From contig NZ_KB235933.1 of assembly GCF_000332315.1 (NCBI RefSeq), positions 586,856-650,855 on the forward strand: DNA of 64,000 nucleotides, written 5' to 3'. Under the pieces are notes generated by a model, which saw only the letters and a program-made list of their open reading frames with translations, did no database searches and had not been told where the DNA came from. Source of the stretch: Prochlorothrix hollandica PCC 9006 = CALU 1027. GTDB taxonomy: Bacteria > Cyanobacteriota > Cyanobacteriia > Prochlorotrichales > Prochlorotrichaceae. Made by a program: the position numbers and the translations under genes. Shown in pieces: positions 10,676 through 64,000 of the stretch (positions within the stretch are counted from its first letter, which is position 1; the number at the start of each line of letters is the position of its first letter).

Positions 10676-11323
10676 CTATGGCTTTGATGAAAGAGAATGA
10701 TAGTTACTTATTGCTTTATCTCTATTAAGGATTTCGCGAGATATAAATGTAAATTTCATCGATCCATAAGTCTGTCTCCCCCTACCAGTAAAGTATTCGC
10801 CTTCAAGAATCTGACTATCTGGTGATAGTGTTAAATTTGCGTTTCCTCTGTGGATAGACATCGTTTGCACACTTTGAGCTATTGGTTCATTCATATACTC
10901 ATATTTAAGAGTTGAATCTGATGCTTCCAAAGTATTTACAGAAGCCATTGTTGAATAGGATTTAGAGGTTGCTGTTGCAATACAAATACTAATATTTGTC
11001 CAAGATTGATTAATGGATAAGTAGATGTCGTCATACGTGTTGTTATTGTATGAGGAGTGAATACAACCAACCCATGTACCTTGTAAGTCAGGTATCGTTG
11101 AAACTCTAATTTTTTTAAATTGCCATGACCAAATAAACTCATCAAATAGCTTATAAAAAATCCCATAAAATCCCATGACAGACGGTGCATCTACCCACCA
11201 AGGTATTTCAAAATGCAAAGCTTTTGTTGTTGAAGTTAACATTAAAGCAAAAGCAACTGCTATAAATGCTAACCATAAGGGAATAGTTTCTCTGTCTTTA
11301 GAATTTGTAGCGTATGAGTGCAT
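10676..11323 (-). CDS. CBASS effector, Cap15-like two-TM beta-barrel protein
   Basis: 215 residues. Two hydrophobic segments (about 15-37 and 45-66) are followed by IPDLQGTWVGCIHSS and a beta-rich domain to the end. This is the layout of Cap15 (SMODS-associating 2TM beta-strand-rich effectors), in which the barrel binds a cyclic nucleotide and the helices disrupt the inner membrane to kill infected cells. The PDLxGxWxG segment is the clearest family mark. The gene starts 13 bp after the CD-NTase stop, the expected partner. It is AT-rich compared with the flanks, as is the rest of the island, which supports transfer. Confidence is good on architecture and context; no alignment was run. Confidence 0.8.
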   Translation of the reverse strand: MHSYATNSKDRETIPLWLAFIAVAFALMLTSTTKALHFEIPWWVDAPSVMGFYGIFYKLFDEFIWSWQFKKIRVSTIPDLQGTWVGCIHSSYNNNTYDDIYLSINQSWTNISICIATATSKSYSTMASVNTLEASDSTLKYEYMNEPIAQSVQTMSIHRGNANLTLSPDSQILEGEYFTGRGRQTYGSMKFTFISREILNRDKAISNYHSLSSKP

Positions 11324-11336
11324 AAATACATCTCCA

Positions 11337-12275
11337 TTAATTCCATAAATTTACTAGTTGATTAACAAAGCATTTGGCAGAATAAAAATTCCAGTGATCT
11401 GCTTTATTTCCAAACAGATATAATTGTTCATTTTGGCAAATGAATTTTTTTGCAACTCCTGATTGAAACTGTTGGTGTAGCCAAAGGACAGTCTCTTGAT
11501 AAGTAGATTGTAAGGATGGCTTAAACTTTTCATCAGGAACGTTATAGAAAAGACATTCAAGAAAGTAAGAGGGAACAGATCCTTTAATGATTAAACCTTT
11601 TTCTTCAAGATAAAGCCTTGCATTTTTAAATAATCTAACAGTTGGCTTATATCTTTCTCCTGTCAAACTTTGGTTTTTATAAGTACCATTTTGATAATGC
11701 AACTTAGGGAAATTTATTATTTTTAAAGCAGCATTTTTTGTGTACAATGTCATGCCTTGTTTTGTGTACAATGTCATGCCTTGATGAAAGTTATTCAATG
11801 AATAGTACTTTCTATGCTGAATACACGGAATGACATCAACACCAAGTCTATTTGCACTTTTAGCTATTTTTAATGACTTATTACCCTGATTTACTTGTCT
11901 AGGAAGCTTACACTTCAATGATGCCAATACATGATTATAAAAAATCAACCAATGCAAATAGGGATCTGGACATCCTGTAAATCCATTGATTGCAAGGAAA
12001 CTCTGTTCGGCATCACTTAATAAGGAAAAATCATGTGTATATGCTCTATTGTATTGCACTAAAATATCGACATCACTGTCTGCTCTAATATTTGTAGCAT
12101 TTCTGTAAGATCCCTGAAGGTATATTTCGTAATCTCTACCTTCTTTATATCCTGTCAGAGTTAACACTGAATTGCTGGATGTAAGAACATTGCGAATTTG
12201 CTCATGTGTTTGTTTAGCGGTTACATCAGCACCTTTATTTGACCATGTTGCTAGTTGCGATTCTGAAATAGTCAT
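11337..12275 (-). CDS. CBASS CD-NTase (SMODS cyclic-nucleotide synthase)
   Basis: 312 residues with a nucleotidyltransferase core: LQGSYRNATNIR (GS at 55-56), SDVDILVQ (Asp68, Asp70) and GVDVIPC (Asp147) form the metal-binding triad. These enzymes make a cyclic di- or trinucleotide when phage is sensed. The next gene is a Cap15-like effector, so this is a minimal two-gene CBASS. The product nucleotide and clade cannot be read by eye. Oddity: residues QGMTLYTK occur twice in tandem (about 165-180), caused by a perfect 24-bp in-frame duplication at 11736-11783. The stop of the upstream methyltransferase is only 3 bp before this start. Confidence 0.85.
   Translation of the reverse strand: MTISESQLATWSNKGADVTAKQTHEQIRNVLTSSNSVLTLTGYKEGRDYEIYLQGSYRNATNIRADSDVDILVQYNRAYTHDFSLLSDAEQSFLAINGFTGCPDPYLHWLIFYNHVLASLKCKLPRQVNQGNKSLKIAKSANRLGVDVIPCIQHRKYYSLNNFHQGMTLYTKQGMTLYTKNAALKIINFPKLHYQNGTYKNQSLTGERYKPTVRLFKNARLYLEEKGLIIKGSVPSYFLECLFYNVPDEKFKPSLQSTYQETVLWLHQQFQSGVAKKFICQNEQLYLFGNKADHWNFYSAKCFVNQLVNLWN
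11736..11783. repeat. Perfect 24-bp tandem duplication inside the CD-NTase gene
   Basis: The 24 bases at 11736-11759 are repeated exactly at 11760-11783. The frame is kept, duplicating eight residues (QGMTLYTK) just after the third catalytic Asp region. Confidence 0.95.
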
Positions 12276-12278
12276 GAT

Positions 12279-15200
12279 TTAATCCTCCCCTCCATCATCT
12301 TTACCCATGCGGTACTTGATGTCATAGTTGATAATGAAATCTAGCTCTTCAGGAGAGAATCCGTAATGTTGGGCTAGAATGCGATCGATTTCGTCAATAA
12401 TGGGTTTTGATTTTTTAGGATAATATTCGTCGTATATAACATTTCCAGTTGCTTTATAGTAGGCTTCTTTTCGATACTTATTTTCCTCAAAATCTCTATT
12501 TAGTATTTCAAAAAGATCAACTAATTGTTGTGCAATCTGCTTTGAAATATTTTCTATTGTAAGTGGAAAAAAATCGATTTCTCTATTGTTTAAATGCCTG
12601 CTATCTGAAAAAGCAATAAACCACCAATAAAATAAATTTGAATTCAAAACAGATCCAGCAATGCGTGTCTTATGAGAGTTCCCAAAAGAAAGAGATTTTA
12701 TTTGTGTTGAAATTTTTTCCCCTTCTCTCTCATTCCAAAAATACGGTACTGTATCCATTACTCGAATAAAGTATCTTGGTGCATTATGAAAAAAGATCTT
12801 TGGTAGAGACAATTGTTGTTGCAATGAAAGAGGTGAATTTGATGTTATTTTTTCTAATATTCTTAATTCAACTTCACTACAAACTTTTGCTATAGAGTTT
12901 GGCACAATATTATTTGTTTCCAAACTAACATATTGTAATATTGAAAAAAGAAATGGTCTATACCCACTTGCCCATCTATGATATTTAGAGGTAAATAGAT
13001 TTTTATTACTAAAGGCTGTAATGTAAATAAGTAACCTTTGATCAACATCATCAAACAATTTAGAAGGTCTAACGTCATAAGATGAAAGCCATATATTTAT
13101 GTTTGCAAACAAATTGATAAGGCATTCCATTCTATCAGTGCAAATCGCTGAATGAGGAATTATCATTCCTGATTTTCCTTTCTTATTTGTTAAAGAAAAA
13201 CACCTTTCAATAACTGGTGCGTATAGGTTTCCAGATTTTTCTGTTGCATAACCTTTTAATACATATGTTAATTTCTTTAATTCTACATAAGGTGGATTTC
13301 CAATAATCACATCAAAACCATCTTGGCTAACAATCCCATAAAACTCAACAAACCAATGAAAAGGCTGGTGACTAGATTTCCACTTTTGAAATAATTCTGG
13401 TTTCTTTGATTGTCCTTTTTTATACTCATCTGCCAAGTAGCGATCTAACTCATCATTAAGTTTTCCAAGACTTGACCGTAATTCATTTTTCTTTGTTACT
13501 AGCTGTTTACTATCTGCATTATCAACAGACTGCAAAGACCTAAATTCTTGAAAAATCTGATCAACAGCTACCGCACTCTTTTCAATGCGTTCTAGGGTGT
13601 CATCAAAAATTAATTTGCCCTGTCCAGAAGACTCAGTGTTTACTGCTTTCCTGACTTCTTCTAAAGTCGCAAAGCCAACCAAAGTATTTCCAGCCCGAAT
13701 ATTAAAATCAATATCTGGTAATGGTTCTATCCCATAGTTGGGTTTCTTAGGATCAGCTTCAACCTGAGAAACCAATTTTAGAAATAATCGCAACTTACAA
13801 ATTTCCGTTGCCTCCTCCATGATGTCCACACCATAGAGGTTATTGATGATAATGGACTTGAGAATAAAATAGCGGCGATTGTTATGTTTACCAACGTTTT
13901 CAAGGATTTGTCTAAACTCTTGATGTCTCTGTGCTGCCTTCGGATCATCAGAGCGATCGCAGTCATCTATAAAGCCTTGCATCCTATCCAAACAAGCATC
14001 ATAGATAGGTTCAAGTATATTCAGTGCAGCAAACAAAAATGCACCAGATCCACAGGTCGGATCGAGTATTGATATCTTTTCGATCGCACGGTAAAAAGCC
14101 AAGAGAAAATCTGCACTCTCACAGCTACCGATCGCATCTTGGGCAAATTGCCTGATGTCGAGGTTATAGGTGATGAGGTCGTTAATTTTGGTGATTTCAC
14201 TCTTACTTAGTTTCTCTCGCAAATCAAGACAGCGTGTGCGCCTTGCAACGTGTTCGCGCCATGTCTCGGTAGGTAAGGCATAATCGGCGCTTGCCGACTT
14301 ATTCCAGTTAGTCCGCTTAGAAACATCGCTAATTCCTGCTTCAATATCATCGGGTAAGGGAATATCGACTCCCTTTCGCACAGCTTCATAGATGTAGAGA
14401 TCTGGACTATCTCGCAATAGTCGCCATAATGCCCCGTCAGACTCTTTCTGTGTTGCATCAAACAGGTAAGGAATAATGCAATTTTTACTGATGTACTCGG
14501 TGATATCCTCTTTGGTATAGTACGCTCCCATTTGTTTTTGGTTGATGTACTTCTCAAAGATGTATCCAAGCACATCAGGATTAATTTCTTTATCGCTACG
14601 AAGTGGGCGATCGTCTAGATGCCAGTCATACTGATCGAAAAAGTTAAAGATAGCGGTAAAGGCAATATCAGGAATTTGAATATCAGTATTTGCTTGTTCT
14701 AGTGGATGTTCTTCAAATAAACCGCCATTGAGATAAGGAATTTTCCCCAGTAATTTGTCTAGTTCTGGTGTACGGGCTTGCTTGCCTAGTCCATCATGAA
14801 ATAGTCTAAGCAGGAAATAGCGGTAAAAAGAGTAAAACTGGTCATTCCCATATTCTTTCTGACACAGTGCTAATCGTTCTTGCAGATAATTGATATTGCC
14901 GTCCAAGAAATGTTTTTTCTGCATGAAATAGATAAACATCAAGCGGTTAAGCATGAGGGATGCGTACCACTCTTGATCGAACTGAGACTGAATACCAGCA
15001 ATACGTTTAAGAAAGTCTTCATGCACTTTCTTAAATCGTTCATAAAACTTTTTCGTAACCTTATCAACGTCAAAAACTTTACTAGCTCGACTGGTTACAT
15101 CAACTAAAGTGATTTTTTCTTCTTCTTCAAAAGAGATCGCGATCGCATCTAACTTTTGTAGCAATGCTTCGCCTGACTGGTTAGCATAAACTTTCTGCTC

Positions 15201-15527
15201 CCGCCTTGCGATTGGTTTGCCCTGCTCTCGCTTTACCCATTGCCAAATCTGTTGATTGAGATCGTAGTAAACGATGAAATGCTCACGACTATATTTGAGA
15301 GCTTCCTTATCGATCTTTGTTCTTGTGGCATAGTCAGGCACACTATTACAGCCATAGACCATCATTCCCCGTTTTTGGGCGATCTGTTTTAGTAGAAAAT
15401 CTTGACCATCAATAGTTAGTAAAATCTCCTGACTTGAGGCTCTGTCCCACAATAATTCTTCAATGAATAGCGATTGAAAATCTAGCTGTTTGAGATAGTT
15501 ACTGGCTTTCTTGCGATTGATAGGCAT
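12279..15527 (-). CDS. Eco57I/PglX-like N6-adenine DNA methyltransferase
   Basis: 1082 residues, the size of type IIG/PglX/DISARM-type methyltransferases. SAM-binding motif I is LDPTCGSGAFLFAAL (~485-500) and the catalytic motif IV is IIGNPPYVELKK (~740), i.e. gamma-type N6-adenine methylation. About 450 residues precede motif I and a C-terminal half, presumably target recognition, follows. I see no obvious nuclease motif in the N-terminus. It lies 4 bp after the PLD-helicase gene, so it would modify host DNA while the helicase-nuclease cuts unmodified DNA. The closest known layouts are ATP-dependent PLD restriction systems (NgoAVII/CglI type) and DISARM; drmA and drmB are missing here. Confidence 0.85.
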   Translation of the reverse strand: MPINRKKASNYLKQLDFQSLFIEELLWDRASSQEILLTIDGQDFLLKQIAQKRGMMVYGCNSVPDYATRTKIDKEALKYSREHFIVYYDLNQQIWQWVKREQGKPIARREQKVYANQSGEALLQKLDAIAISFEEEEKITLVDVTSRASKVFDVDKVTKKFYERFKKVHEDFLKRIAGIQSQFDQEWYASLMLNRLMFIYFMQKKHFLDGNINYLQERLALCQKEYGNDQFYSFYRYFLLRLFHDGLGKQARTPELDKLLGKIPYLNGGLFEEHPLEQANTDIQIPDIAFTAIFNFFDQYDWHLDDRPLRSDKEINPDVLGYIFEKYINQKQMGAYYTKEDITEYISKNCIIPYLFDATQKESDGALWRLLRDSPDLYIYEAVRKGVDIPLPDDIEAGISDVSKRTNWNKSASADYALPTETWREHVARRTRCLDLREKLSKSEITKINDLITYNLDIRQFAQDAIGSCESADFLLAFYRAIEKISILDPTCGSGAFLFAALNILEPIYDACLDRMQGFIDDCDRSDDPKAAQRHQEFRQILENVGKHNNRRYFILKSIIINNLYGVDIMEEATEICKLRLFLKLVSQVEADPKKPNYGIEPLPDIDFNIRAGNTLVGFATLEEVRKAVNTESSGQGKLIFDDTLERIEKSAVAVDQIFQEFRSLQSVDNADSKQLVTKKNELRSSLGKLNDELDRYLADEYKKGQSKKPELFQKWKSSHQPFHWFVEFYGIVSQDGFDVIIGNPPYVELKKLTYVLKGYATEKSGNLYAPVIERCFSLTNKKGKSGMIIPHSAICTDRMECLINLFANINIWLSSYDVRPSKLFDDVDQRLLIYITAFSNKNLFTSKYHRWASGYRPFLFSILQYVSLETNNIVPNSIAKVCSEVELRILEKITSNSPLSLQQQLSLPKIFFHNAPRYFIRVMDTVPYFWNEREGEKISTQIKSLSFGNSHKTRIAGSVLNSNLFYWWFIAFSDSRHLNNREIDFFPLTIENISKQIAQQLVDLFEILNRDFEENKYRKEAYYKATGNVIYDEYYPKKSKPIIDEIDRILAQHYGFSPEELDFIINYDIKYRMGKDDGGED

Positions 15528-17523
15528 GACATTAACCTTTTGATAGACCTAGAGAACAAATAATTTGCGGTTCGTGGTGACGTTCATCTTCAGAGATAAT
15601 GCACAGTCGTTCATCGGTGCGTAGCGCTAAAACCAGATTGGCTAACTGTTCATCGTCTATCCCATCTTTGAACCTACGGTTAAGCGTATCGATCGCAGAC
15701 TGTCGCAATGGATAGCGGTAAATCTCTTCGACTGCCTTGGGTAAATCTGGCGGAACCAGTAAAGGATTACGCTCTGTCTCATGTTCTACATGGCGCTTGA
15801 GCCGTTCATAGGATCGAAACCTTGCACTCTTAGAACTGCCAAGCTGACCACCTGTATTCTTTTCTTCCTTGACCATCATCTTTGTCCCCTTGCTGACCAG
15901 TTCATGATGTTTTTCATCTCTAGGTATTGCTGGGGTGTTTGGTTCGCAAGCAGCAAGTCTAAGAATAGCTAACTGGGATTGAGTGACACTATTACCATTG
16001 CGATCGATATAGGCTAAAGCATCATTACCTTCTGCGGTGCGGACATAAACCATCACACCTTCCGGCTTGGTTGCTTCCGGACTATGCGATCGCGTTGAAT
16101 ACGAGACATTTGGCAATGACTCAATGGTTTTCTTCAATGCAGGGTTTTTATCAGTGGCATTTTTCCAGATTTGGTAAGCCTCAGAAGTAAGGTCAACTTC
16201 GTTGTCATCTTCGCTATCGTCATAGATACCAGACTTCTCGTTATACAAGTCTCTTACGGCTCTCGCCTCGTCATTTTCAAAGAAAGTTTCATCAGTACCA
16301 ACTACCTCGGAATTTTCTTCTAAACGTTTGCTTAGGCGGCTTCTGAGTTTAATCAATTCCTCCACGCCGTCGGCTGGCAAAAATGAGTAACAAAGGATTT
16401 TTTCTGACTGCTGACCGATACGGTCGATCCGTCCTGCCCTTTGGATGAGTCGGATAATTGCCCAAGGCAGATCATAATTAACAATGATGTCGCAGTCCTG
16501 TAAGTTCTGACCTTCGCTAAGTACATCGGTGGCGATTAGTACCCTTAGCTCACTGATAACCACACCTAAACGACTATTGCTCTTAGGACTAAACCGATAG
16601 GCAAGCTCGGTAGGATCATCGGTGCTACCTGTAACAGTGGCAATTTTATCAATCCCAGATTTAGATAACTGCTCGCCTAAATAGTTTGCTGTGTCAGCGA
16701 ACTGGGTAAATACCAACACTTTGCGATCGCTATGGTCAACTGTTAGTAATTTCACCAGTGCTGCCAACTTCCGATCTTTATTGGCTTGCCATTCTGGGCA
16801 TAAATCAATTACCCCAATCAAAGCTTGGGCATCGGCTAATAAAGCCTCTTTGATCGTCGGCTTAAATAGGTTTGAGCGAATCCACTTAAACCGTTTTTTA
16901 TATTTATTGGCATAGAGTTTATAGACAGCTTCGGCACGTTTTTGATAGTCACCTTCAGAAGTCCTTTCCACATCAGCACTTTCGCCCTCGGCTTCCACAT
17001 CAGCACTTGTCGATGCTAAAGAATCTGAGTCCTCATCAACATTTTTGGTATCTAACAGGTCTGCATCCTGAGCGCCGATGGGAATATCTAAATCATTGGC
17101 GATCGCATGAAGAAAAATGTAATTCCGTAAAATATGGCGATCAATCGACTGTAAAAAAGCTACCCCACTGCTTTCAAGACGTTTAAACAAGTTGGTACGA
17201 CAGAAACCCATTAACCGCTTTCCTGCGCGAGATAGACCGTCAAGAATCAGTTGCTCCCGTTCAGTGGTTTTTTTCATAGGCTTATCAATGGCAAAGTTAC
17301 CTAGACCATAGCGAGGCAAGTTCAGAGCATTGATTACATCAACTACGCGATCGCTATATAGCAGAGCATAGGGATCATCCTTTGCCGAACTGATTGCAAA
17401 CTTTGCAGTTTTTGGTATGCGATCGGGAAAATAAGATCGACTACCATCGGGAAATTCTAAATACTTGCGTCCTGATCCATCGGTTTCATCGGTTTTGGCA
17501 TAGTTAGTCTTGATAAAACTGCG

Positions 17524-18784
17524 GGCTCTCTGGGAATGAGGCCGTATAGTGTATAATAGGTTACGTCTTGAGTGAAGTCAGCTTATGTTCCTTTCTTTAA
17601 ATCAAATCATTAAGATTCCTGGCTGGGAAGTATGGAATACCAACATAGAGAGTGACCGTATTACCTTTTTGCTAAGGTATTTGAACGAGATAGAGGTTTG
17701 TCATTTTTGTGGCTCGAAACAGATTTCCGTCCATAAAATCCGCAAAGTATCAGTAAGAGACTTAGAGTTTTTAGACAAGAAAACCTTTTTAGAATTAGAG
17801 AGACACCAATACTACTGCAATGAGTGTCGTAAATATTTTACTGAATCGTCCAGCGACATCGACTTTCAACGCGGAATGACAGAAAGATACAAAAATAGAA
17901 TCTTTGAGAAAATTAAAAATTCAACGATTACCCATGTTGCTCAAGAAGAAGGTTTAACTTACGATCAAGTAAAAGGTATTTTAGAATCAAAATTTAATGG
18001 AAGCAACAATCTGAATTGCAATATCAATAAAATAAGTATAGATGAGTTCAGTCACCGTAAAGGTCAGGGAAACTTTGCGACAGTGATTTGTGATTTAGAA
18101 ACAGCAAATCTCATCGAAGTGATTGACTCTCACCAACAGGATAAAATCATCGAAATCCTTATGGAGTGGCCGTTAGAGGTAAGAGAGGCTATTACAGAGG
18201 TTAGTGTAGATATGTGGGGCGGATTTACAAAAGTCATCCAAACTGTGTTCCCAAATGCACGTATTGTATATGATCGTTTTCATGTCATGAAAATCTTGAA
18301 TGAAGAACTTAATAAAATACGAAAACAGTGTAATTCGGTGCTTAAAGATCTCAAAATAAAGCATATCCGTAGCCTTATTCTAAAAACGGAACAGATCTTA
18401 ATGACGAAGAAAAAAGCTCCTAGAAATCATCCTGAAATCCTCTGAAAGGCTAAGCAATGCCTATCAGCTAAAGGAAGATTTTCGTCAAATCTATGAAACA
18501 GATCAAGAACCTGAAGTGGCTAAAGTTAAATTAGAAGAATGGTTAGCCAAAGACATCCAAATTTTAATAGTCAAGTAATCACGACAATCAAAAATACATT
18601 TTGTATGGAATCTGTAATTACTTTTATAACCGTACAACTAGCGGTAAAATGGAGGGAATTAATAACAAAATAAAGGTTATCAAGCGTCAAGCTTATGGAT
18701 TCACAAACTTTGATCATCTGAGAATGAGACTCCTCATAGCCTGTTCTCATTAGTTTTACTTATCAGCCTCATTCCCAGAGAGCC
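17524..18784 (+). mobile_element. ISL3-family insertion sequence (1261 bp)
   Basis: The ends are perfect 19-bp inverted repeats: GGCTCTCTGGGAATGAGGC at 17524-17542 and its complement at 18766-18784. An 8-bp target duplication flanks them. The start GGCTCT and the 8-bp duplication are hallmarks of ISL3. Base composition is clearly AT-richer than its host gene. The element carries one transposase frame, now frameshifted, so it is probably no longer autonomous. Confidence 0.95.
17585..18753 (+). pseudogene. ISL3-family transposase, frameshifted twice
   Basis: The first frame runs 17585-18445 (286 codons). It has an N-terminal zinc-binding part (CHFCGS..YYCNECRKYF) and the first two catalytic Asp residues (SIDEFSHRKG, VSVDMWGGF). 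At the A6 run near 18412-18418 the frame changes: KLLEIILKSSERLSNAYQLK continues the family sequence in another frame. Near 18578-18605 it changes again, to NYFYNRTTSGKMEGINNKIK, which carries the catalytic Glu, ending at TAG 18751-18753. All three DDE residues exist, but in different frames, so the gene is inactive unless frameshifting happens twice. Confidence 0.9.
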
Positions 18785-20168
18785 AAACTGCGAGTACGTC
18801 TGACCATGAATAGCCTCATCAAATCTCGCCAATCATCGGGATTACCGCTAAAATCAAAGGCTTTAAGCGATCTCACATCGGCTTGATGCTTCTTTCTAAA
18901 TTCCAGTTCACCACCAATAGAATCTATGTACTTTTCAGGTCGTATGCCTAGATTCCGATCCTCTGGGATAAACAACTGGAACTGAGAAGAGAGATCGAGA
19001 AATGTTTTGTTATAGGGTGTCGCCGTGAGCAAAATACATTTGCTTTCGTTGGTGTCGATGTACTCCTGAATAGCTCTAAACCTTTTGCCTTCCCGGTTGC
19101 GTAGGTTATGACTTTCATCAATCAATACCACACGATAACGGCGTAAGTCCTTGAGTTCATCCTGTACGCGACTAATCGACATGACCTTAGCAATTAATCG
19201 ATACTCAGCTACATAGTCCTCCCACATGGGGACAAGGTTCTTGGGGCAAATGATCAGGGTCTCTAGAAATGAGTCATCCTGCAACACTCTGGCCAGGGCT
19301 GTAGCAATCATGGTTTTACCAAGTCCCACAACATCGGCAATCATCACGCCGCCGCGTCTGTTGACATGGTGAGCCGCAATTTTGACGGCAGCTTCTTGAA
19401 ACTTAAACAGCTTAAATTCCTTCGGTAATCGGTACTCCGATATTCCTGCCCTTGCCTCTTGAGACAAGTGATAAACCATCTTTAAGTAGATGTGATATGG
19501 CGGTGTCAGTTCTTCCCTAGCCCAACTCTCATCAATGACTTCCGCTAGTTCCTTAGAAATATCAACACAAAATTTATCTGTCCATTTATCTTCAAACCAT
19601 TCTTCTAGCGTTGCTGTTGCCACATGGTCATTAACATCTATGTTGAGTTCACCTTGTTTCGACAGTCCCGAAAAAGTGAGGTTGCTACTCCCCAAAAAAC
19701 CGAGGCGTGGTGTTTTCTCTGGTACATGGACTAGATACAGCTTGGCATGAAGTGTATGACGCAAAAACAATTGAACCGTAACTTTTCCCGCTTTTAGTTG
19801 AGCGCTTAACCTCCTTAGCGCCGCTTCATCTTGGTTATTTGGTGCACCATAGGTTAATTGGGCGCGAAACTCTTCCACATACCTACGTTTGCGCCTCGCT
19901 GCCTCTTGAAGATCTATACCTTTATATTCGCTATTCAAACTTAAAAAAGCTTGAAGATCTTCTTTTGGTAAGGTCTGCATTCCCACTAGCAAACGACATT
20001 GTGAGTCTTCGGTTCCCGCAAATTTCTCGATCTCATCTTCGATAGATCGCCATCCCCTCAAATTGACATAGCCAACGCAAAAATCAGCCCTAGTCGCACC
20101 ATCTAAGGTACTTTTTAACTCTGGGAGTAGCCGTTGCTGCATATTGTCAAAAATTCTTGGCATCGTCC

Positions 20169-31655: not shown

Positions 31656-32600
31656 ATGCGCTTTCTTGACCCTAAAACTGACTTTGCCTTCAAAAAAATC
31701 TTTGGTTCAGCGGAAAGCAAGCCTATTCTGATTGAGTTCCTCAATGCTTTGGTTTATGACAGCCAACCGATCGTCCAAGACTTAGAAATTCTCGACCCCT
31801 ACCAAGCCCCCCAGCTTCAAGGCGTAAAAGACACCTTTCTAGACGTGAAAGCCCAGCTAGCGGACGGGACAATGGTGTTGATTGAAATGCAGGTGTTGAA
31901 CCCCCTAGATTTTAATAAACGGGTGTTGTACAACGTAGCCAAAGCCTACTCCCTGCAACTGCAACGGGGCCAGGGCTACAGTCGCCTGCGTCCAGTCATT
32001 GGTCTGACCATTACGGACTTTGTGCTGTTTCCCGAACGCGATCGCTTTCTCTCCCATTATCAGTTGCTCGATCGGGAAGACGGCCTACCCTATGGCGATG
32101 ACATAGAACTAGTCTTTGTGGAATTACCCAAATTTGCCAAGTCCCTAGGCGATCTGGAGACCCTCACAGATCTCTGGACATTTTTTCTCCAGCAAGCCGG
32201 TGACCTAGAGGACATTCCATCCCCTCTGGACTCCAGTCCCAACCTGGATCATGCGTTTCACATTGCCGAGACCGTCAACTTGAGCATGGAGGAATTTGAC
32301 CTGCTGGAGAAGCAAGCCTTCCGGGTGGAAGACGGTCGCAATGTGGTGCGGCGGGCGCTCCTGGAAGGGCGACAGCAGGGGCGGGAAGAAGGCCGCGAAG
32401 AAGGCCGCGAAGAAGGCCGCGAAGAAGGCCGCGAAGAAGGCCGCGAAGTAGGGCGCACGGAGGGAGAGCAGCAGCGGAGTCGAGACATTGCCCGATCGCT
32501 GCGGGGATTGTTACCGGTGGCGGTGATTGCAGAGCGGACGGGGCTAACCCTGGCGGAGGTGGAAACGCTAGCGGCGGCAGATGCAGCAGCGGGCACCTGA
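31656..32600 (+). CDS. Rpn family PD-(D/E)XK nuclease, copy 1 of 4
   Basis: 314 residues starting MRFLDPKTDFAFKKIFGSAE, the standard start of Rpn/PDDEXK_2 proteins. The nuclease core is VKDTFLDVKAQLADGTMVLI then EMQVLNPLDFNKRVLYNVAK (Asp in DTFLDV, Glu-x-Gln in IEMQ). A charged linker of GREE units, five full units plus GREV here, leads to a C-terminal helix pair (SLRGLLPVAVIAERTGLTLA). Rpn proteins cut DNA and promote RecA-independent recombination. GGAGGGTAACCC precedes the ATG. It forms a tandem block with three near-identical copies. Confidence 0.9.
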   Translation: MRFLDPKTDFAFKKIFGSAESKPILIEFLNALVYDSQPIVQDLEILDPYQAPQLQGVKDTFLDVKAQLADGTMVLIEMQVLNPLDFNKRVLYNVAKAYSLQLQRGQGYSRLRPVIGLTITDFVLFPERDRFLSHYQLLDREDGLPYGDDIELVFVELPKFAKSLGDLETLTDLWTFFLQQAGDLEDIPSPLDSSPNLDHAFHIAETVNLSMEEFDLLEKQAFRVEDGRNVVRRALLEGRQQGREEGREEGREEGREEGREEGREVGRTEGEQQRSRDIARSLRGLLPVAVIAERTGLTLAEVETLAAADAAAGT

Positions 32601-32716
32601 GGACTGGTTTTTTGGGTTTGGTATGATGTCGGAGCGATCGATCTTGCGATCGCTGAACCACCCCAGCCGCCAGTGTCGGCGATCGAGTTCAGGTTTGACT
32701 ATCTAGAGGGTAACCC

Positions 32717-33601
32717 ATGCGCTTTCTTGACCCTAAAACTGACTTTGCCTTCAAAAAAATCTTTGGTTCAGCGGAAAGTAAGCCCATTCTGATTGAGTTT
32801 CTTAATGCCTTGGTTTATGACAGCCAACCGATCGTCCAAGACCTAGAGATTCTCGACCCCTACCAAGCGCCCCAACTCCAGGGTGTGAAAGACACCTTTC
32901 TAGACGTGAAAGCCCAGCTAGCGGACGGAACCATGGTGTTGATCGAAATGCAGGTATTAAACCCCCTGGACTTTAACAAGCGCGTCCTCTACAACGTGGC
33001 CAAAGCCTACTCCCTGCAACTGCAACGGGGCCAGGGCTACAGTCGCCTGCGTCCGGTCATTGGCCTGACCATTACGGACTTTGTGCTGTTTCCAGAACGC
33101 GATCGCTTTCTCTCCCATTATCAACTCCTCGATCGGGAAGACGGCCTACCCTACGGTGATGACATAGAACTAGTCTTTGTGGAATTACCCAAATTTGCCA
33201 AGTCCCTAGGCGATCTGGAGACCCTCACAGATCTCTGGACATTTTTTCTCCAGCAAGCCGGTGATCTAGAGGACATTCCATCCCCTCTGGACTCCAGTCC
33301 CAACCTGGATCATGCGTTTCACATTGCCGAGACCGTCAACTTGAGCATAGAGGAATTTGACCTGCTGGAGAAGCAAGCCTTCCGGGTGGAAGACGGTCGC
33401 AATGTGGTGCGGCGGGCGCTCCTGGAAGGGCGACAGCAGGGGCGGGAAGAAGGGCGCACGGAGGGAGAGCAGCAGCGGAGTCGAGACATTGCTCGATCGC
33501 TGCGGGGATTGTTACCGGTGGCGGTGATCGCGGAGAAGACGGGGTTGACGGTGGCGGAGGTGGAGGCGCTGGCGGCGGCAGATGCAGCAGCGGAAACCTG
33601 A
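32717..33601 (+). CDS. Rpn family PD-(D/E)XK nuclease, copy 2 of 4
   Basis: 294 residues, almost identical to copy 1 over the first 230. It has the shortest charged linker (one GREE unit before GRTEGEQQ) and small changes near the end (IAEKTGLTVAEVEAL). The 116-bp intergenic segment, with its own ribosome site GAGGGTAACCC, is repeated between all copies, so each unit includes its upstream sequence. Synonymous differences cluster in patches, as expected from gene conversion. Confidence 0.9.
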   Translation: MRFLDPKTDFAFKKIFGSAESKPILIEFLNALVYDSQPIVQDLEILDPYQAPQLQGVKDTFLDVKAQLADGTMVLIEMQVLNPLDFNKRVLYNVAKAYSLQLQRGQGYSRLRPVIGLTITDFVLFPERDRFLSHYQLLDREDGLPYGDDIELVFVELPKFAKSLGDLETLTDLWTFFLQQAGDLEDIPSPLDSSPNLDHAFHIAETVNLSIEEFDLLEKQAFRVEDGRNVVRRALLEGRQQGREEGRTEGEQQRSRDIARSLRGLLPVAVIAEKTGLTVAEVEALAAADAAAET

Positions 33602-33717
33602 GGACTGGTTTTTTGGGTTTGGTATGATGTCGGAGCGATCGATCTTGCGATCGCTGAACCACCCCAGCCGCCAGTTCTGGCGATCGAGTCCAGGTTTGAC
33701 TATCCAGAGGGTAACCC

Positions 33718-34638
33718 ATGCGCTTTCTTGACCCTAAAACTGACTTTGCCTTCAAAAAAATCTTTGGTTCAGCGGAAAGTAAGCCCATTCTGATTGAGTT
33801 TCTTAATGCCTTGGTTTATGACAGCCAACCGATCGTCCAAGACTTAGAAATTCTCGACCCCTACCAAGCCCCCCAGCTTCAAGGCGTAAAAGACACCTTT
33901 CTAGACGTGAAAGCCCAGCTAGCGGACGGGACAATGGTGTTGATTGAAATGCAGGTGTTGAACCCCCTAGATTTTAATAAACGGGTGTTGTACAACGTAG
34001 CCAAAGCCTACTCCCTGCAACTGCAACGGGGTCAGGGCTACAGTCGCCTACGTCCAGTTATTGGCCTGACCATTACGGACTTTGTGCTGTTTCCCGAACG
34101 CGATCGCTTTCTCTCCCATTATCAGTTGCTCGATCGAGAAGATGGCCTACCCTATGGCGATGACATAGAACTCGTTTTTGTGGAATTACCCAAGTTTGCC
34201 AAGTCCTTAGGCGATCTGGAGACCCTAACGGATCTCTGGACATTCTTTCTCCAGCAAGCCGGTGATCTAGAGGACATTCCATCCCCTCTGGACTCCAGTC
34301 CCAACCTGGATCATGCGTTTCACATTGCCGAGACCGTCAACTTGAGCATGGAGGAATTTGACCTGCTGGAGAAGCAAGCCTTCCGGGTGGAAGACGGTCG
34401 CAATGTGGTGCGGCGGGCGCTCCTGGAAGGGCGACAGCAGGGGCGGGAGGAAGGCCGCGAAGAAGGCCGCGAAGAAGGCCGCGAAGTAGGGCGCACGGAG
34501 GGAGAGCAGCAGCGGAGTCGAGACATTGCTCGATCGCTGCGGGGATTGTTACCGGTGGCGGTGATCGCGGAGAAGACGGGGTTGACGGTGACGGAGGTGG
34601 AGGCGCTGGCGGCGGCAGATGCAGCAGCGGAAACCTGA
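33718..34638 (+). CDS. Rpn family PD-(D/E)XK nuclease, copy 3 of 4
   Basis: 306 residues with three GREE units plus GREV in the linker, otherwise like copies 1 and 2. The central block (about 33838-34000) matches copy 1 at the DNA level while the upstream ~120 bp matches copy 2, so this copy is a mosaic of its neighbours. Confidence 0.9.
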   Translation: MRFLDPKTDFAFKKIFGSAESKPILIEFLNALVYDSQPIVQDLEILDPYQAPQLQGVKDTFLDVKAQLADGTMVLIEMQVLNPLDFNKRVLYNVAKAYSLQLQRGQGYSRLRPVIGLTITDFVLFPERDRFLSHYQLLDREDGLPYGDDIELVFVELPKFAKSLGDLETLTDLWTFFLQQAGDLEDIPSPLDSSPNLDHAFHIAETVNLSMEEFDLLEKQAFRVEDGRNVVRRALLEGRQQGREEGREEGREEGREVGRTEGEQQRSRDIARSLRGLLPVAVIAEKTGLTVTEVEALAAADAAAET

Positions 34639-34754
34639 GGATTGGTTTTTTGGGTTTGGTATGATGTCGGAGCGATCGATCTTGCGATCGCTGAACCACC
34701 CCAGCCGCCAGTGTCGGCGATCGAGTCCAGGTTTGACTATCCAGAGGGTAACCC

Positions 34755-35662
34755 ATGCGCTTTCTTGACCCTAAAACTGACTTTGCCTTCAAAAAATCTT
34801 TGGTTCAGCGGAAAGTAAGCCCATTCTGATTGAGTTTCTTAATGCCTTGGTTTATGACAGCCAACCGATCGTCCAAGACCTAGAGATCCTCGACCCCTAC
34901 CAAGCCCCCCAACTCCAGGGGGTCAAAGATACCTTTCTGGACGTAAAGGCCCAGCTAGCGGACGGAACCATGGTGTTGATCGAGATGCAGGTGTTGAATC
35001 CCCTGGACTTTAATAAACGGGTGTTGTATAACGTAGCCAAAGCCTACTCCCTGCAACTGCAACGGGGTCAGGGCTACAGTCGCCTGCGTCCAGTCATTGG
35101 TCTGACCATTACGGACTTTGTTCTTTTTCCCGAACGAGATCGCTTTCTCTCCCATTATCAGTTGCTCGATCGAGAAGACGGCCTACCCTACGGTGATGAC
35201 ATAGAACTAGTCTTTGTGGAATTACCCAAATTTGCTAAGTCCCTAGGCGATCTGGAGACCCTAACGGATCTCTGGACATTTTTTCTCCAGCAAGCCGGTG
35301 ACCTAGAGGACATTCCATCCCCTCTGGACTCCAGTCCCAACCTGGATCATGCGTTTCACATTGCCGAGACCGTCAACTTGAGCCTGGAGGAATTTGACCT
35401 GCTGGAGAAGCAAGCCTTCCGGGTGGAAGACGGTCGCAATGTGGTGCGGCGGGCGCTCCTGGAAGGGCGACAGCAGGGGCGGGAGGAAGGCCGCGAAGAA
35501 GGTCGCGAAGAAGGCCGCACGGAGGGAGAGCAGCAGCGGAGTCGAGATATTGCTCGATCTCTGCGGGGATTGTTACCAGTGGCGGTGATTGCGGAGAAGA
35601 CGGGGTTGACGGTGGCGGAGGTGGAGGCGCTGGCGGCGGCAGATGCAGCAGCGGGGATCTGA
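34755..35662 (+). pseudogene. Rpn family nuclease, copy 4, frameshifted in an A-tract
   Basis: The same ATG context as the other copies is found at 34755, but the TTCAAAAAAATC tract (seven A in copies 1-3) has six A here (34791-34796), shifting the frame after codon 12. The remainder, open from an internal ATG at 34847 to 35662 (271 codons), keeps the nuclease core residues, linker (three GREE units) and C-terminus. Regaining one A by slippage would restore a 302-residue protein, so this is either a young pseudogene or a phase-variable ON/OFF allele. Confidence 0.88.
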
Positions 35663-43395: not shown

Positions 43396-44346
43396 CTAGC
43401 GAGGTACGGGCACTTGGCTCAACAGACCCCGGATAATGCTATCCACCGTAATGCCATCCAATTGGGCTTCGGGGCGCAAAATCAAGCGATGGCGCAGCAG
43501 CGGCAGGGCCACTGTTTTGAGGTCGTCAGGGGTCAGGAAGCTACGATCGGCCAGCCAAGCCGTCGCCTTGGCCGCTGTTAACCAGGCCACCGTCGATCGC
43601 GGCGAAGCCCCCAACAGCAGATCCCCATGGTGGCGGGTTCGTTCCACCAACTCCAGCAGGTAATCCAGCAACGTGTCCTGGACTTCCAACTGCTGCACCT
43701 GTTGTCGTGCCGCCAGAATATGCTGCACCGTGGCCACCGTCTTCAGTCGTTCCAAGTCCATGCGCCGCCCCTGAAATCCCCCCTGATTATTGAGGAGCAT
43801 TTGCTTTTCCGCCGCTTTATCGGGGTAGTCGATGCTGAGTTTGAATAAAAAGCGATCGAGTTGGGCTTCCGGCAAGGGATAGGTTCCCTCAAACTCCAGG
43901 GGGTTTTGGGTGGCAATGACCCAGAACAGGGGCGACAGGGTCCAACTGGTGCCATCCAGGGTCACCTGCTGTTCCTGCATTGCCTCCAGCAGGGCGGATT
44001 GGGTTTTGGGGGGCGTGCGGTTGATTTCATCGGCCAACAGGATTTCGGTGAAAACCGGCCCTTTTTTGAGGCTAAAGTCCTTGGTGTTGAGATCAAAAAT
44101 ATTGGTGCCCAAAATATCCGAGGGCAACACATCGGGAGTCAGTTGCACTCGGCGAAAGTCTGCCTGCACAAGCTGGGCCAGGAGCTTGACTAACAGGGTT
44201 TTGCCGGTGCCCGGAACCCCCTCCACAATGACATGGCCTCCAGCCAGCAGGGCAATCAGCAGTTGGTTCACCACCGCTCCTTGACCGACTAAGAGGCGAT
44301 CGAGGGCAGTGCGAAGACGATGAAAGACAGCGTTAAGTTCAGCCAT
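43396..44346 (-). CDS. MoxR-family AAA ATPase
   Basis: 316 residues. Walker A GVPGTGKTLLVK (~43), Walker B ILLADEINRTPPKTQSALLE (~107, with the MoxR-typical NRTPPKTQ), sensor VIATQNPLEFEGTYPLPEAQ and arginine-finger segment LDRFLFKLSIDYP are all present. MoxR proteins act as chaperones that activate partner proteins with a VWA or DUF58 domain; none is adjacent in the window. It is monocistronic, with MITE 1 close after the stop. Confidence 0.92.
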   Translation of the reverse strand: MAELNAVFHRLRTALDRLLVGQGAVVNQLLIALLAGGHVIVEGVPGTGKTLLVKLLAQLVQADFRRVQLTPDVLPSDILGTNIFDLNTKDFSLKKGPVFTEILLADEINRTPPKTQSALLEAMQEQQVTLDGTSWTLSPLFWVIATQNPLEFEGTYPLPEAQLDRFLFKLSIDYPDKAAEKQMLLNNQGGFQGRRMDLERLKTVATVQHILAARQQVQQLEVQDTLLDYLLELVERTRHHGDLLLGASPRSTVAWLTAAKATAWLADRSFLTPDDLKTVALPLLRHRLILRPEAQLDGITVDSIIRGLLSQVPVPR

Positions 44347-61486: not shown

Positions 61487-63670
61487 GTGCTATTTGAATT
61501 GGGGTTTGGGCTGGCGGAAGTGGTCTGGGGCGTGGGGATGGCCATGCTGGAGAATTTTGGCGAGAAGGCGGGCGAGGGGCTGGTGGAAGGCTTGGTAGAT
61601 AAGGTGTTTGGGGGCGGGGAGGCGCTGGAGCAAGACCGGGCGCTGGCCCTAGCGTTAGAGCAGAATAAGGAGTTGGCGGCGCAGTTTACGGCGGCGCAGC
61701 AGAATTTAGCCCAGGTTCAGGCCCAGCAGAATCGCTTGAAGCGGGAGGAGTTGGAACTGGCAGCGCAGCAGGGGGCGATGAGTTTGGCGCTGACCCAGCG
61801 GCTGGCGGAAGCGAATTTGGATTTGGGCTGGCGGAAGTTGGAGCAGGATGGCCTCATTGAACGGGAAAAGCTGGACCAGCAGCGGCAGTTGGCCCAGCAG
61901 GAGATGCAGTTACAGGCGTGGCTCCAGGGGCAGAGTTTGCAGTTGCAGGAGCGGCACCATGGGGAAATCCTAGCGGCGCGGCAACGGGAACAGGCAATCC
62001 AGATCCAAGCGGATTGGGATTTGCAGGGAAATCTGGGAACGATTTTTAGCCGTGCTGAGTTGGAGCAAATGCAGAGGGATGCGCGTCTGAAGCTGATTTG
62101 TGCCCAAATGCAGGTGACTAATAATTGTCCTGGCCATTTTCAGGAAGATGTGGCTATGGAGGTGGAAAGTCAGATGTTTGAGGCGGACTTTGGGCCAGAT
62201 GTGCAGTGTTTAGCCAAGTTTTTCAAGGATCAAAGTGTTTTTGACACCCATGCCAGCCGCCTCAAGGGAATTCTGACCAATTCTCCGGTGATTATGGCTT
62301 TTAGCCGCATGATGTCTCCTCGGATCTATTTTCATTATGTGCTGTGGAATAGCAAGAGTGCGGAGTTTCTGCGGCAGGGGGATGGCAAGTTTAACCGCAA
62401 GGTCAACTGGAAGCAGCTTAAGCGCAAGCTGGAGGATAAGGCGCAGGAACAGGGAAAGGCGGTGCCGGAGGAGGATATTTTGGAGGTGCTGGGTAATTAT
62501 GTGATTGCGTTGCACAAGCTCTTTGCCTGTTATCTGCTGGATCTCCATGCGGTGGTGGATGGGCCGATCCCCTTTGTGCAGCTACGGCTGGAGCAGGAGG
62601 ATTGGGGCGATCTGCGGGGGCTGGTGTGGCCGGAGTTGCAGCCGCTGTTGGATCAGTTGCAGAAGCTGAAGGCGGCGCGGGAGGAGGCGTTTGAGCGGCT
62701 GCGGGGGGCAGAAAAGCTGCGGGAAGCGGAGGAACAGCGGCGCAAGAAGGAAGAAGAGCGGGAACGGCGGCGGCAGGAGCAGCAGCAGGAGCAACAGGCG
62801 GAGGCGAAGCGGCAGGCGGCGCAGGAGGCGGAACGGATGTGGCAGGAACGGGAGGAACGGCGGCGGCAGGAGGAGGAGCGGCAACGGCAACGGGAGGGGG
62901 CGGAGGCCCAACGCCGAGAGGCGGAGCGCCGCAAGCAGTTGAGCTTTGCTTTGCCCGGTGAGGGGGGAACCCTGGAGTTTGTCTGGGTGCCGTCGGGTGA
63001 GTTAATTATGGTGAAGGGAAGCCACCGGGTGCAGGTGCCAGAGTTCCGCATCGGCAAGTTTCCGGTGACCCAGCGCCAGTACCAGGCGATCATGAAAACG
63101 AATCCTTCCTACTTTCAGGCCGATGATCTCACCCCTAAGGAGCAAAAAAAGAAGCTGACTCCTTGGGATCGCCCCGTGGAAAAGGTCACCTGGCATCAAG
63201 CCGTGGAATTTTGCGAAGAACTGACGAAGATCCTCAAAATTGAGGGTTATGCGGTGCGGCTCCCCAGCGAGACGATGTGGGAGTGGGCGGCACGGGATGG
63301 GGAGAACAGCAGCTTGACCTTTGCGGGCAGCAATGACCTCAATGAGGTGGGCTGGTACTACGGCAATGCGGGCGGCAAAACCCATCCGGTGGGGCAAAAG
63401 CAGGCCAATAAGTTAGGAATCTATGACATGAGCGGCAACGTTTGGGAGTGGTGCTGGGATCACTGGAGTAGTGATTCAAACGTACTACTCAAGAATGGTA
63501 AACCTTTGTTAGAGGGGGGTGACAACACCAAACGCGCCGTTCGTGTTGGTTCCTGGAACGACGTCGCAGACGATTGCAGTTCTGGGAATCGCTACTACTA
63601 CTATCCGTGCTGCAGCTTCTTCAACCTAGGTTTTCGTGTTTTTTTGCTGCCGGTTGGTTTTGTGCCCTGA
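61487..63670 (+). CDS. Coiled-coil protein with C-terminal FGE/CLec-fold domain, probable DGR target
   Basis: 727 residues from a GTG with GGGAGGATC upstream. Residues 1-190 are an amphipathic N-terminus and coiled coil. Residues 200-400 form a helical domain without a known name. Residues 400-485 are an extreme E/R/Q coiled coil. The last ~245 are a formylglycine-generating-enzyme (SUMF1, C-type-lectin-fold) domain: FVWVPSGELIMVKG, FRIGKFPVTQRQYQAIMKTN, VRLPSETMWEWAARDG, MSGNVWEWCWDHW and a final NLGFRVFL. The last 45 residues read VRVGSW..DCSSGNRYYYYP-CCSFFNLGFRV, with codons almost all of N-N-C/T form, as left by adenine mutagenesis in retroelement targets. It is likely a displayed or sensory binding protein. 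Confidence 0.75.
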   Translation: MLFELGFGLAEVVWGVGMAMLENFGEKAGEGLVEGLVDKVFGGGEALEQDRALALALEQNKELAAQFTAAQQNLAQVQAQQNRLKREELELAAQQGAMSLALTQRLAEANLDLGWRKLEQDGLIEREKLDQQRQLAQQEMQLQAWLQGQSLQLQERHHGEILAARQREQAIQIQADWDLQGNLGTIFSRAELEQMQRDARLKLICAQMQVTNNCPGHFQEDVAMEVESQMFEADFGPDVQCLAKFFKDQSVFDTHASRLKGILTNSPVIMAFSRMMSPRIYFHYVLWNSKSAEFLRQGDGKFNRKVNWKQLKRKLEDKAQEQGKAVPEEDILEVLGNYVIALHKLFACYLLDLHAVVDGPIPFVQLRLEQEDWGDLRGLVWPELQPLLDQLQKLKAAREEAFERLRGAEKLREAEEQRRKKEEERERRRQEQQQEQQAEAKRQAAQEAERMWQEREERRRQEEERQRQREGAEAQRREAERRKQLSFALPGEGGTLEFVWVPSGELIMVKGSHRVQVPEFRIGKFPVTQRQYQAIMKTNPSYFQADDLTPKEQKKKLTPWDRPVEKVTWHQAVEFCEELTKILKIEGYAVRLPSETMWEWAARDGENSSLTFAGSNDLNEVGWYYGNAGGKTHPVGQKQANKLGIYDMSGNVWEWCWDHWSSDSNVLLKNGKPLLEGGDNTKRAVRVGSWNDVADDCSSGNRYYYYPCCSFFNLGFRVFLLPVGFVP
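63537..63660 (+). other. Candidate DGR variable region (VR)
   Basis: Codons in this stretch include TAC TAC TAC TAT, TGC TGC AGC TTC TTC AAC, i.e. all the outcomes expected from AAC/AAT template codons with A changed. Flanking invariant codons GGT TCC TGG and GGT TTT CGT match the conserved GSW...GFR frame of known targets. The template repeat and reverse transcriptase are not in the window. Confidence 0.55.
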
Positions 63671-63732
63671 GGACTCCCTTCTTTGCACTTTTTCCCTTTT
63701 CTTTTTTCCCTTTTTCTTTTATTTTCTCCTTT

Positions 63733-63754
63733 AGCGCCTTTGGCGCTTTTTTTT
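63733..63754 (+). terminator. Hairpin / terminator after the FGE-fold gene
   Basis: AGCGCC-TTT-GGCGCT followed by a T-rich tract, 63 bp after the stop. In retroelement systems a hairpin just after the VR can also aid retrohoming, so it may have two roles. Confidence 0.75.
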
Positions 63755-63759
63755 ATTTT

Positions 63760-64000
63760 GAGTTAGAACCCCGGTTTCTTCTCGACGTAATCCAACCAAT
63801 CAACAGTTCTTGCCAGAGAAACCGGGGTTCTCGACACCCAGCAGCCAACTTTCCGGCGGGGGCACATGAGTTAGAACCCCGGTTTCTTCTCGATGGAAGC
63901 CAACCAATTAACAGTTCCTGCCAGGGAAACCGGGGTTCTCGACACCCAGCAGCCAACTTTCCGGCGGGGGCACATGAGTTAGAACCCCGGTTTCTTCTCG
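63760..64000. repeat. 108-bp tandem repeat reaching the window edge
   Basis: Units begin at 63760, 63868 and 63976 (GAGTTAGAACCCCGGTTTC). Each unit holds inverted arms AGAACCCCGGTTTC and GAAACCGGGGTTCT about 40 bp apart. The first two units differ at only a few positions. The array continues beyond 64000. Confidence 0.9.

Follow-up and report, generated by a model that had tools for sequence, protein, structure and literature searches.

A diversity-generating retroelement target in Prochlorothrix hollandica with its template and probable reverse transcriptase on other contigs

The last long gene of the window (the whole 64,000-nt stretch of the Prochlorothrix hollandica PCC 9006 genome analysed here) is, with near certainty, a genuine target of a diversity-generating retroelement (DGR). 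Its final 139 nt form a variable region (VR), for which the template is almost as surely TR2, a repeat on another contig with no reverse transcriptase (RT) beside it. The window gene is probably a remote DGR target, written from this stand-alone template with an RT encoded on a third contig. The features are collected in Table 1.

Table 1. Features of the target gene, its variable region and the reverse transcriptase (window positions unless a contig is named)
Feature	Position	Strand	Details
DGR target gene (variable protein)	61487..63670	+	ORF list; GTG start, 727 aa
Conserved front module, coiled coil and globular stretch	61787..62686	+	35–50% identical in relatives
FGE-sulfatase/C-type-lectin-fold domain	63017..63640	+	PF03781, aa 511-718
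VR, repeat of template TR2 (C4:225514-225652)	63533..63671	+	139 nt, stop codon included
Two of four non-adenine differences from TR2, GG>TT	63546..63547	+	
Span of adenine-templated variable sites	63557..63627	+	14 of 32 template adenines differ in the window VR
AGGACTC, 3' boundary (IMH-like)	63670..63676	+	G at 63672 vs T in TR2
Terminator-like hairpin after target gene	63733..63747	+	6 bp, then T-tract
DGR-type RT	C9:101797-102882		362 aa, motifs IGNLTSQ and YVDD

The open reading frame, with the run of variable codons at its 3' end, is present as the initial annotation described it, and the C-terminal FGE/CLec domain named there is borne out by PF03781 (E = 2e-34). The closest solved structure to this domain is that of TvpA, itself a DGR variable protein, from Treponema denticola (2y3c, E = 5e-33), which has no sequence match to the front of the window protein. 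The VR closes this C-type-lectin-fold gene at its 3' end and occupies, as had been proposed, the C-terminus of the target protein, where the repeat runs through the stop codon; the extent first given for it, 63537-63660, covers the right region and falls short of the repeat unit. The front of the protein had been described as coiled coil and helical. A coiled coil is indeed present; it is not the whole of the front, since residues ~100-400 form a conserved module, 35–50% identical in relatives, where it is joined to C-terminal FGE, GUN4, WD40 or TPR domains. Further proteins encoded in this genome contain the module as well (e.g., one ending at C9:1009921). It has no Pfam, PADLOC or PDB match, and PADLOC has no match to the whole protein either. 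An alignment-free AlphaFold2 model of a portion of the front reached a pLDDT of 43, from which no structural reading is drawn. Searched against the contigs of the named genomes, the full protein returned only four distant FGE loci, all in other phyla.

A search with the last 132 nt of the target gene against the whole genome yielded five further copies of 84–87% identity. No template lies after position 64000, where the initial annotation had suggested looking for one; it is TR2, on contig C4, which carries AAC or AAT wherever the other copies vary. Against TR2, 65 of 69 mismatches in the five dispersed VRs fall on template adenines: 14/18 in the window copy, and 10/10, 15/15, 13/13 and 13/13 in the others, the two VRs with 13/13 being identical to each other. 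For the window copy, with 32 template adenines among 139 sites, the bias is significant by Fisher's test (p = 1.4e-7). When any of the other copies is taken as template the adenine pattern vanishes, and only TR2 behaves as a template. Besides the window gene, the targets served by TR2 include those at C4:219989, C9:1201103 and C1:1488326. The VRs at C12:83410-83548 and C1:1488326-1488464 are identical, and the C12 copy, which lies beside masked sequence, resembles a duplicate of the C1 target that has lost its 5' part.

The sequences flanking the VRs indicate how recently they were rewritten. In the 100 nt upstream of the VR, three of the targets (C4a, C9t and C1b) differ from each other by 29–36%, yet none of the 107 non-adenine sites inside their VRs differs, which argues that TR2 rewrote all three recently. 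The window target differs by 27% from C4a and C9t in the same upstream stretch and lies close to C1b (3–8% difference). Its VR differs from those of the three at 4 of 107 non-adenine sites, so that it has not been rewritten lately and is the least recently refreshed copy. These four differences from TR2 (at 63546, 63547, 63608 and 63641) are all G>T; they hit three codons (Gly>Val, Gly>Cys and Val>Phe) and touch the otherwise constant RGGSW motif. For comparison, 20 RT-linked template–VR pairs contain 9 core mismatches off adenine out of 286, three of them G>T. At the 3' boundary, AGG in the window VR faces AGT in TR2, an IMH/IMH*-like arrangement; a switch from C, T or A in the template to G in the VR is seen in the 20 RT-linked pairs listed and is common to the TR2 system and to that of TR1, a different template described below. 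The hairpin reported after the gene exists, but shuffled sequences contain such hairpins at least as often (3.9 expected vs 1 observed); we rejected it as a DGR cruciform, and it looks like a plain terminator. Direct repeats follow at 63760-64000 (GAGTTAGAACCCCGGTTTCTTCTCG...), and the same repeats stand 3' of the C1 and C12 targets.

Two RT searches agree that the genome, available as an unclosed assembly of 13 contigs (99.16% complete), encodes exactly one DGR-type RT. It lies on contig C9, is intact, matches the PHROG RT family at 1.7e-117 and is accompanied by the accessory protein Avd (NF033474, 8.6e-40; PF22296). The template TR1 lies just 3' of this RT, and three VRs nearby differ from TR1 with an adenine bias. 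A second RT-like match, on C6, scores only 1.5e-8 against RVT_1; the DGR RT does not match it, it has no spacer RNA, and it was set aside. The genome therefore holds a near-repeat with adenines at the variable sites as well as an intact DGR-type RT with Avd, so that the inference of a DGR target holds, and neither of the two absences that the initial annotation had named as speaking against it is found. The parts do not share one locus: the window VR is on C1, TR2 on C4 and the RT on C9.

The surroundings of TR2 look like a DGR locus from which the enzyme is gone. Neither RT nor Avd occurs in the surrounding 19 kb, and on the 414-kb contig no RT is present in the ~13 kb before TR2 or in the 5 kb after it. 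TR2 and the target at C4:219989 are arranged and oriented as in a canonical DGR locus, and the gap between them, where Avd and RT normally sit, is filled with transposase remnants and unrelated genes; TR2 has probably lost a linked RT-Avd. The ~160 nt that precede the repeat are also common to the two, apart from a single mismatch (L020 13356-13513 and 7832-7989). They begin with TGGGGCAG, a sequence similar to a candidate leader motif, GGG(G/A)CAGGC, found 5' of most relatives' templates. A crossover at the leader motif between the TR2 locus and the C4 target would be the simplest reading of the shared stretch, and by it TR2's own conserved leader seems to have been displaced by ~150 nt.

What TR2 does retain is a complete, structured spacer RNA of 150 nt on its 3' side. 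A conserved RNA of ~150 nt occupies the same position in relatives' RT-linked DGRs and at TR1. We built a covariance model from 14 RT-linked copies, TR1's included and TR2's left out, with a structure of 36 pairs in which 95.6% of cells are paired and 25 of 36 pairs show two-sided changes (13.2 in shuffles); the structure was drawn by hand on these same 14 sequences, which favours its own statistics. The genome contains exactly two matches to the model, at TR1 (134.5 bits) and at TR2 (112.5 bits, E = 1.2e-27), the latter being a fair test because TR2 is absent from the model. The TR2 RNA keeps 34 of the 36 pairs, 12 of them by two-sided changes relative to the model consensus. The Rfam family RT-14 (RF02921) provides independent full-length matches, albeit weak, to the spacers of TR2 (38.5 bits) and of the linked DGR L099 (39.1 bits), both below the gathering cut-off of 48.1; Rfam lists RT-14 as an RNA gene, and its tie to DGR templates comes from the position and covariation described here. 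The nearest relatives of the TR2 spacer RNA do not include TR1's; it groups weakly with RT-linked copies of other genomes (support 0.39), so that the C9 RT need not recognise it.

The positions of spacer RNAs were crossed with those of RTs in 242 genomes of the class. Of the 103 spacer RNAs, which are spread over 68 genomes, 42 adjoin an intact RT and 11 an RT fragment; among the unlinked ones, 19 share their genome with an intact RT and 31 are in genomes where none was found. The two unlinked classes are inflated by contig breaks and include two cases in which a closer look revealed RT fragments. In genomes of at most 15 contigs the corresponding numbers are 14, 3, 7 and 13. The 31 of 103 in genomes with no intact RT suggest that spacer RNAs may outlive their RT. 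Several of the unlinked RNAs belong to compact cassettes of target, template and spacer with adenine-only differences between template and VR. Among RT-less cassettes in genomes with an intact RT elsewhere, the mismatches on adenine number 17/17 in G244, 10/10 in G006, 8/8 in G096 (9/12 over a longer stretch) and 18/20 in G087. Adenine-only differences persist in some draft genomes that lack an RT, among them G088, G081, G153 and G065, and in G184, a genome of few contigs with no intact RT, one cassette has visibly decayed (11/18). On a tree of 100 spacer RNAs, linked and unlinked states change 20 times, against 27.9 with shuffled labels (0 of 1000), a clustering to which kinship among the genomes also contributes. 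One clade of 11 (support 0.84, inner node 0.92; one member at a contig edge) has no RT-linked member. At L167, L168, L175, L177 and L181, the spacer RNA directly follows VR-like sequence that is not AAC-rich, with no adjoining RT; such an arrangement could be the product of recombination between VR and template that deleted the RT.

We consider it likely, by a little less than the reading as a whole, that the RT for TR2 is supplied in trans from C9. TR2 RNA would be transcribed from a stand-alone template-RNA gene on C4; the C9 RT-Avd would bind it by way of the spacer and copy it with random bases opposite adenine, and the cDNA would replace VRs in trans. Trans supply is favoured by the adenine-specific differences between TR2 and its VRs, by the lack of divergence at the non-adenine sites of three of them, by the sole DGR-type RT with its Avd, by the conserved spacer RNA of TR2, by the boundary switch common to the TR1 and TR2 systems, and by the RT-less cassettes of other RT-bearing genomes, in which all or nearly all differences fall on adenine. 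Against it count the distance between the TR2 and TR1 spacer RNAs, the displaced leader, the four non-adenine changes in the window VR, the spacer RNAs in genomes with no intact RT found, and the RT-lacking drafts whose differences are still adenine-only. More tentatively, these cassettes of target, template and spacer RNA, with neither RT nor Avd, may represent a lineage of non-autonomous DGR satellites that persists as a clade of its own and draws in trans on a resident RT-Avd, in the way that non-autonomous transposons depend on autonomous ones, with TR2 and the window target as a dispersed instance; we put this at somewhat short of an even chance.

It is unlikely, if still worth weighing, that the C9 RT plays no part, and that a linked RT-Avd of TR2's own wrote the five VRs and was then lost, so recently that non-adenine sites have not drifted. 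The transposase remnants in the place of Avd and RT, the displaced leader, a spacer RNA that is not near TR1's and the many RT-lacking genomes that retain such RNAs all agree with such a loss. However, adenine-only RT-less cassettes recur, those of G244 and G006 within the clade that has no RT-linked member, and repeated, very recent RT loss explains them poorly; the decayed cassette of G184 likewise speaks against it. That TR2's RT exists in a gap or on a plasmid missing from the assembly is very improbable: the assembly is unclosed and incomplete, but TR2 lies well inside its contig with no RT in the flanks, and both searches show only the RT on C9. Ordinary gene conversion among paralogous FGE domains, which do share modules and swap domains, has a negligible chance of accounting for the repeats with no DGR at all, given mismatches confined to the adenines of one copy, zero non-adenine divergence beside strongly divergent flanks, and the RT, Avd and spacer RNA that the genome encodes.

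Trans supply from C9 has partial counterparts in known systems. Remote VRs are known in cyanobacterial DGRs, for which the cis locus is usual and not required (Vallota-Eastman et al. 2020, PMC7517822). Those systems likewise have dispersed FGE/CLec targets matching a template elsewhere, signalling-type N-terminal fronts and nearby transposases; their remote targets are tied to a DGR that has an RT, whereas TR2 is RT-less with its own spacer RNA. Trans-diversified targets have been reported in Thiohalocapsa PB-PSB1 (Dore et al. 2024, PMC10907252), where, among DGRs 2, 4 and 5, targets in loci that no longer have an RT appear to be diversified in trans and transposons broke the loci; there, DGR 2 gives its own components to remote VRs, whereas here RT and TR2 would come from two loci. 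In the reconstituted DGR of phage BPP-1, the spacer RNA recruits RT-Avd (PMC12875486). That system shares with ours the template, the structured spacer, adenine mutagenesis and a VR ending a lectin-fold gene, but its natural parts lie in one locus, with the spacer between template and RT.

As for the protein, the rewritten lectin-fold face would be the variable ligand-binding end of a sensor-like molecule, with the front module signalling onward; the domain partners of this module in other proteins are consistent with the sensor role first suggested for the front. In conflict systems of cyanobacteria, FGS and GUN4 are listed with the domains that take the effector position (Kaur et al. 2020, PMC7159879), and DGR targets of such systems have been proposed as antigen sensors (Dore et al., PMC10907252). 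By analogy, the window protein may work similarly. Membership in a VMAP-type MoxR-vWA ternary conflict system (PMC7159879) was rejected; the target has no vWA domain, and the MoxR-like AAA ATPase (43399-44346) lies 17 kb away. Elsewhere in the window are a CBASS-type pair at 10679-12275 (2TM effector and oligonucleotide cyclase, PADLOC), a type IIG restriction-modification protein followed by a helicase and PLD-like proteins that are similar to split defence helicases (12282-20163), and a PDDEXK_2 nuclease-family gene in four tandem copies at 31656-35662, the family being taken from a scan of the first copy.

In experimentally characterised DGRs, enzyme, template and target are kept together (PMC10907252), and we found no account of stand-alone or non-autonomous DGR templates in the literature searched, a search that most subscription papers fall outside. 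If stand-alone templates are served in trans, one RT could diversify several independent sensor families across a genome, and surveys centred on the RT would overlook some of the hypervariable genes. The spacer-RNA model offers a direct way of finding such templates.
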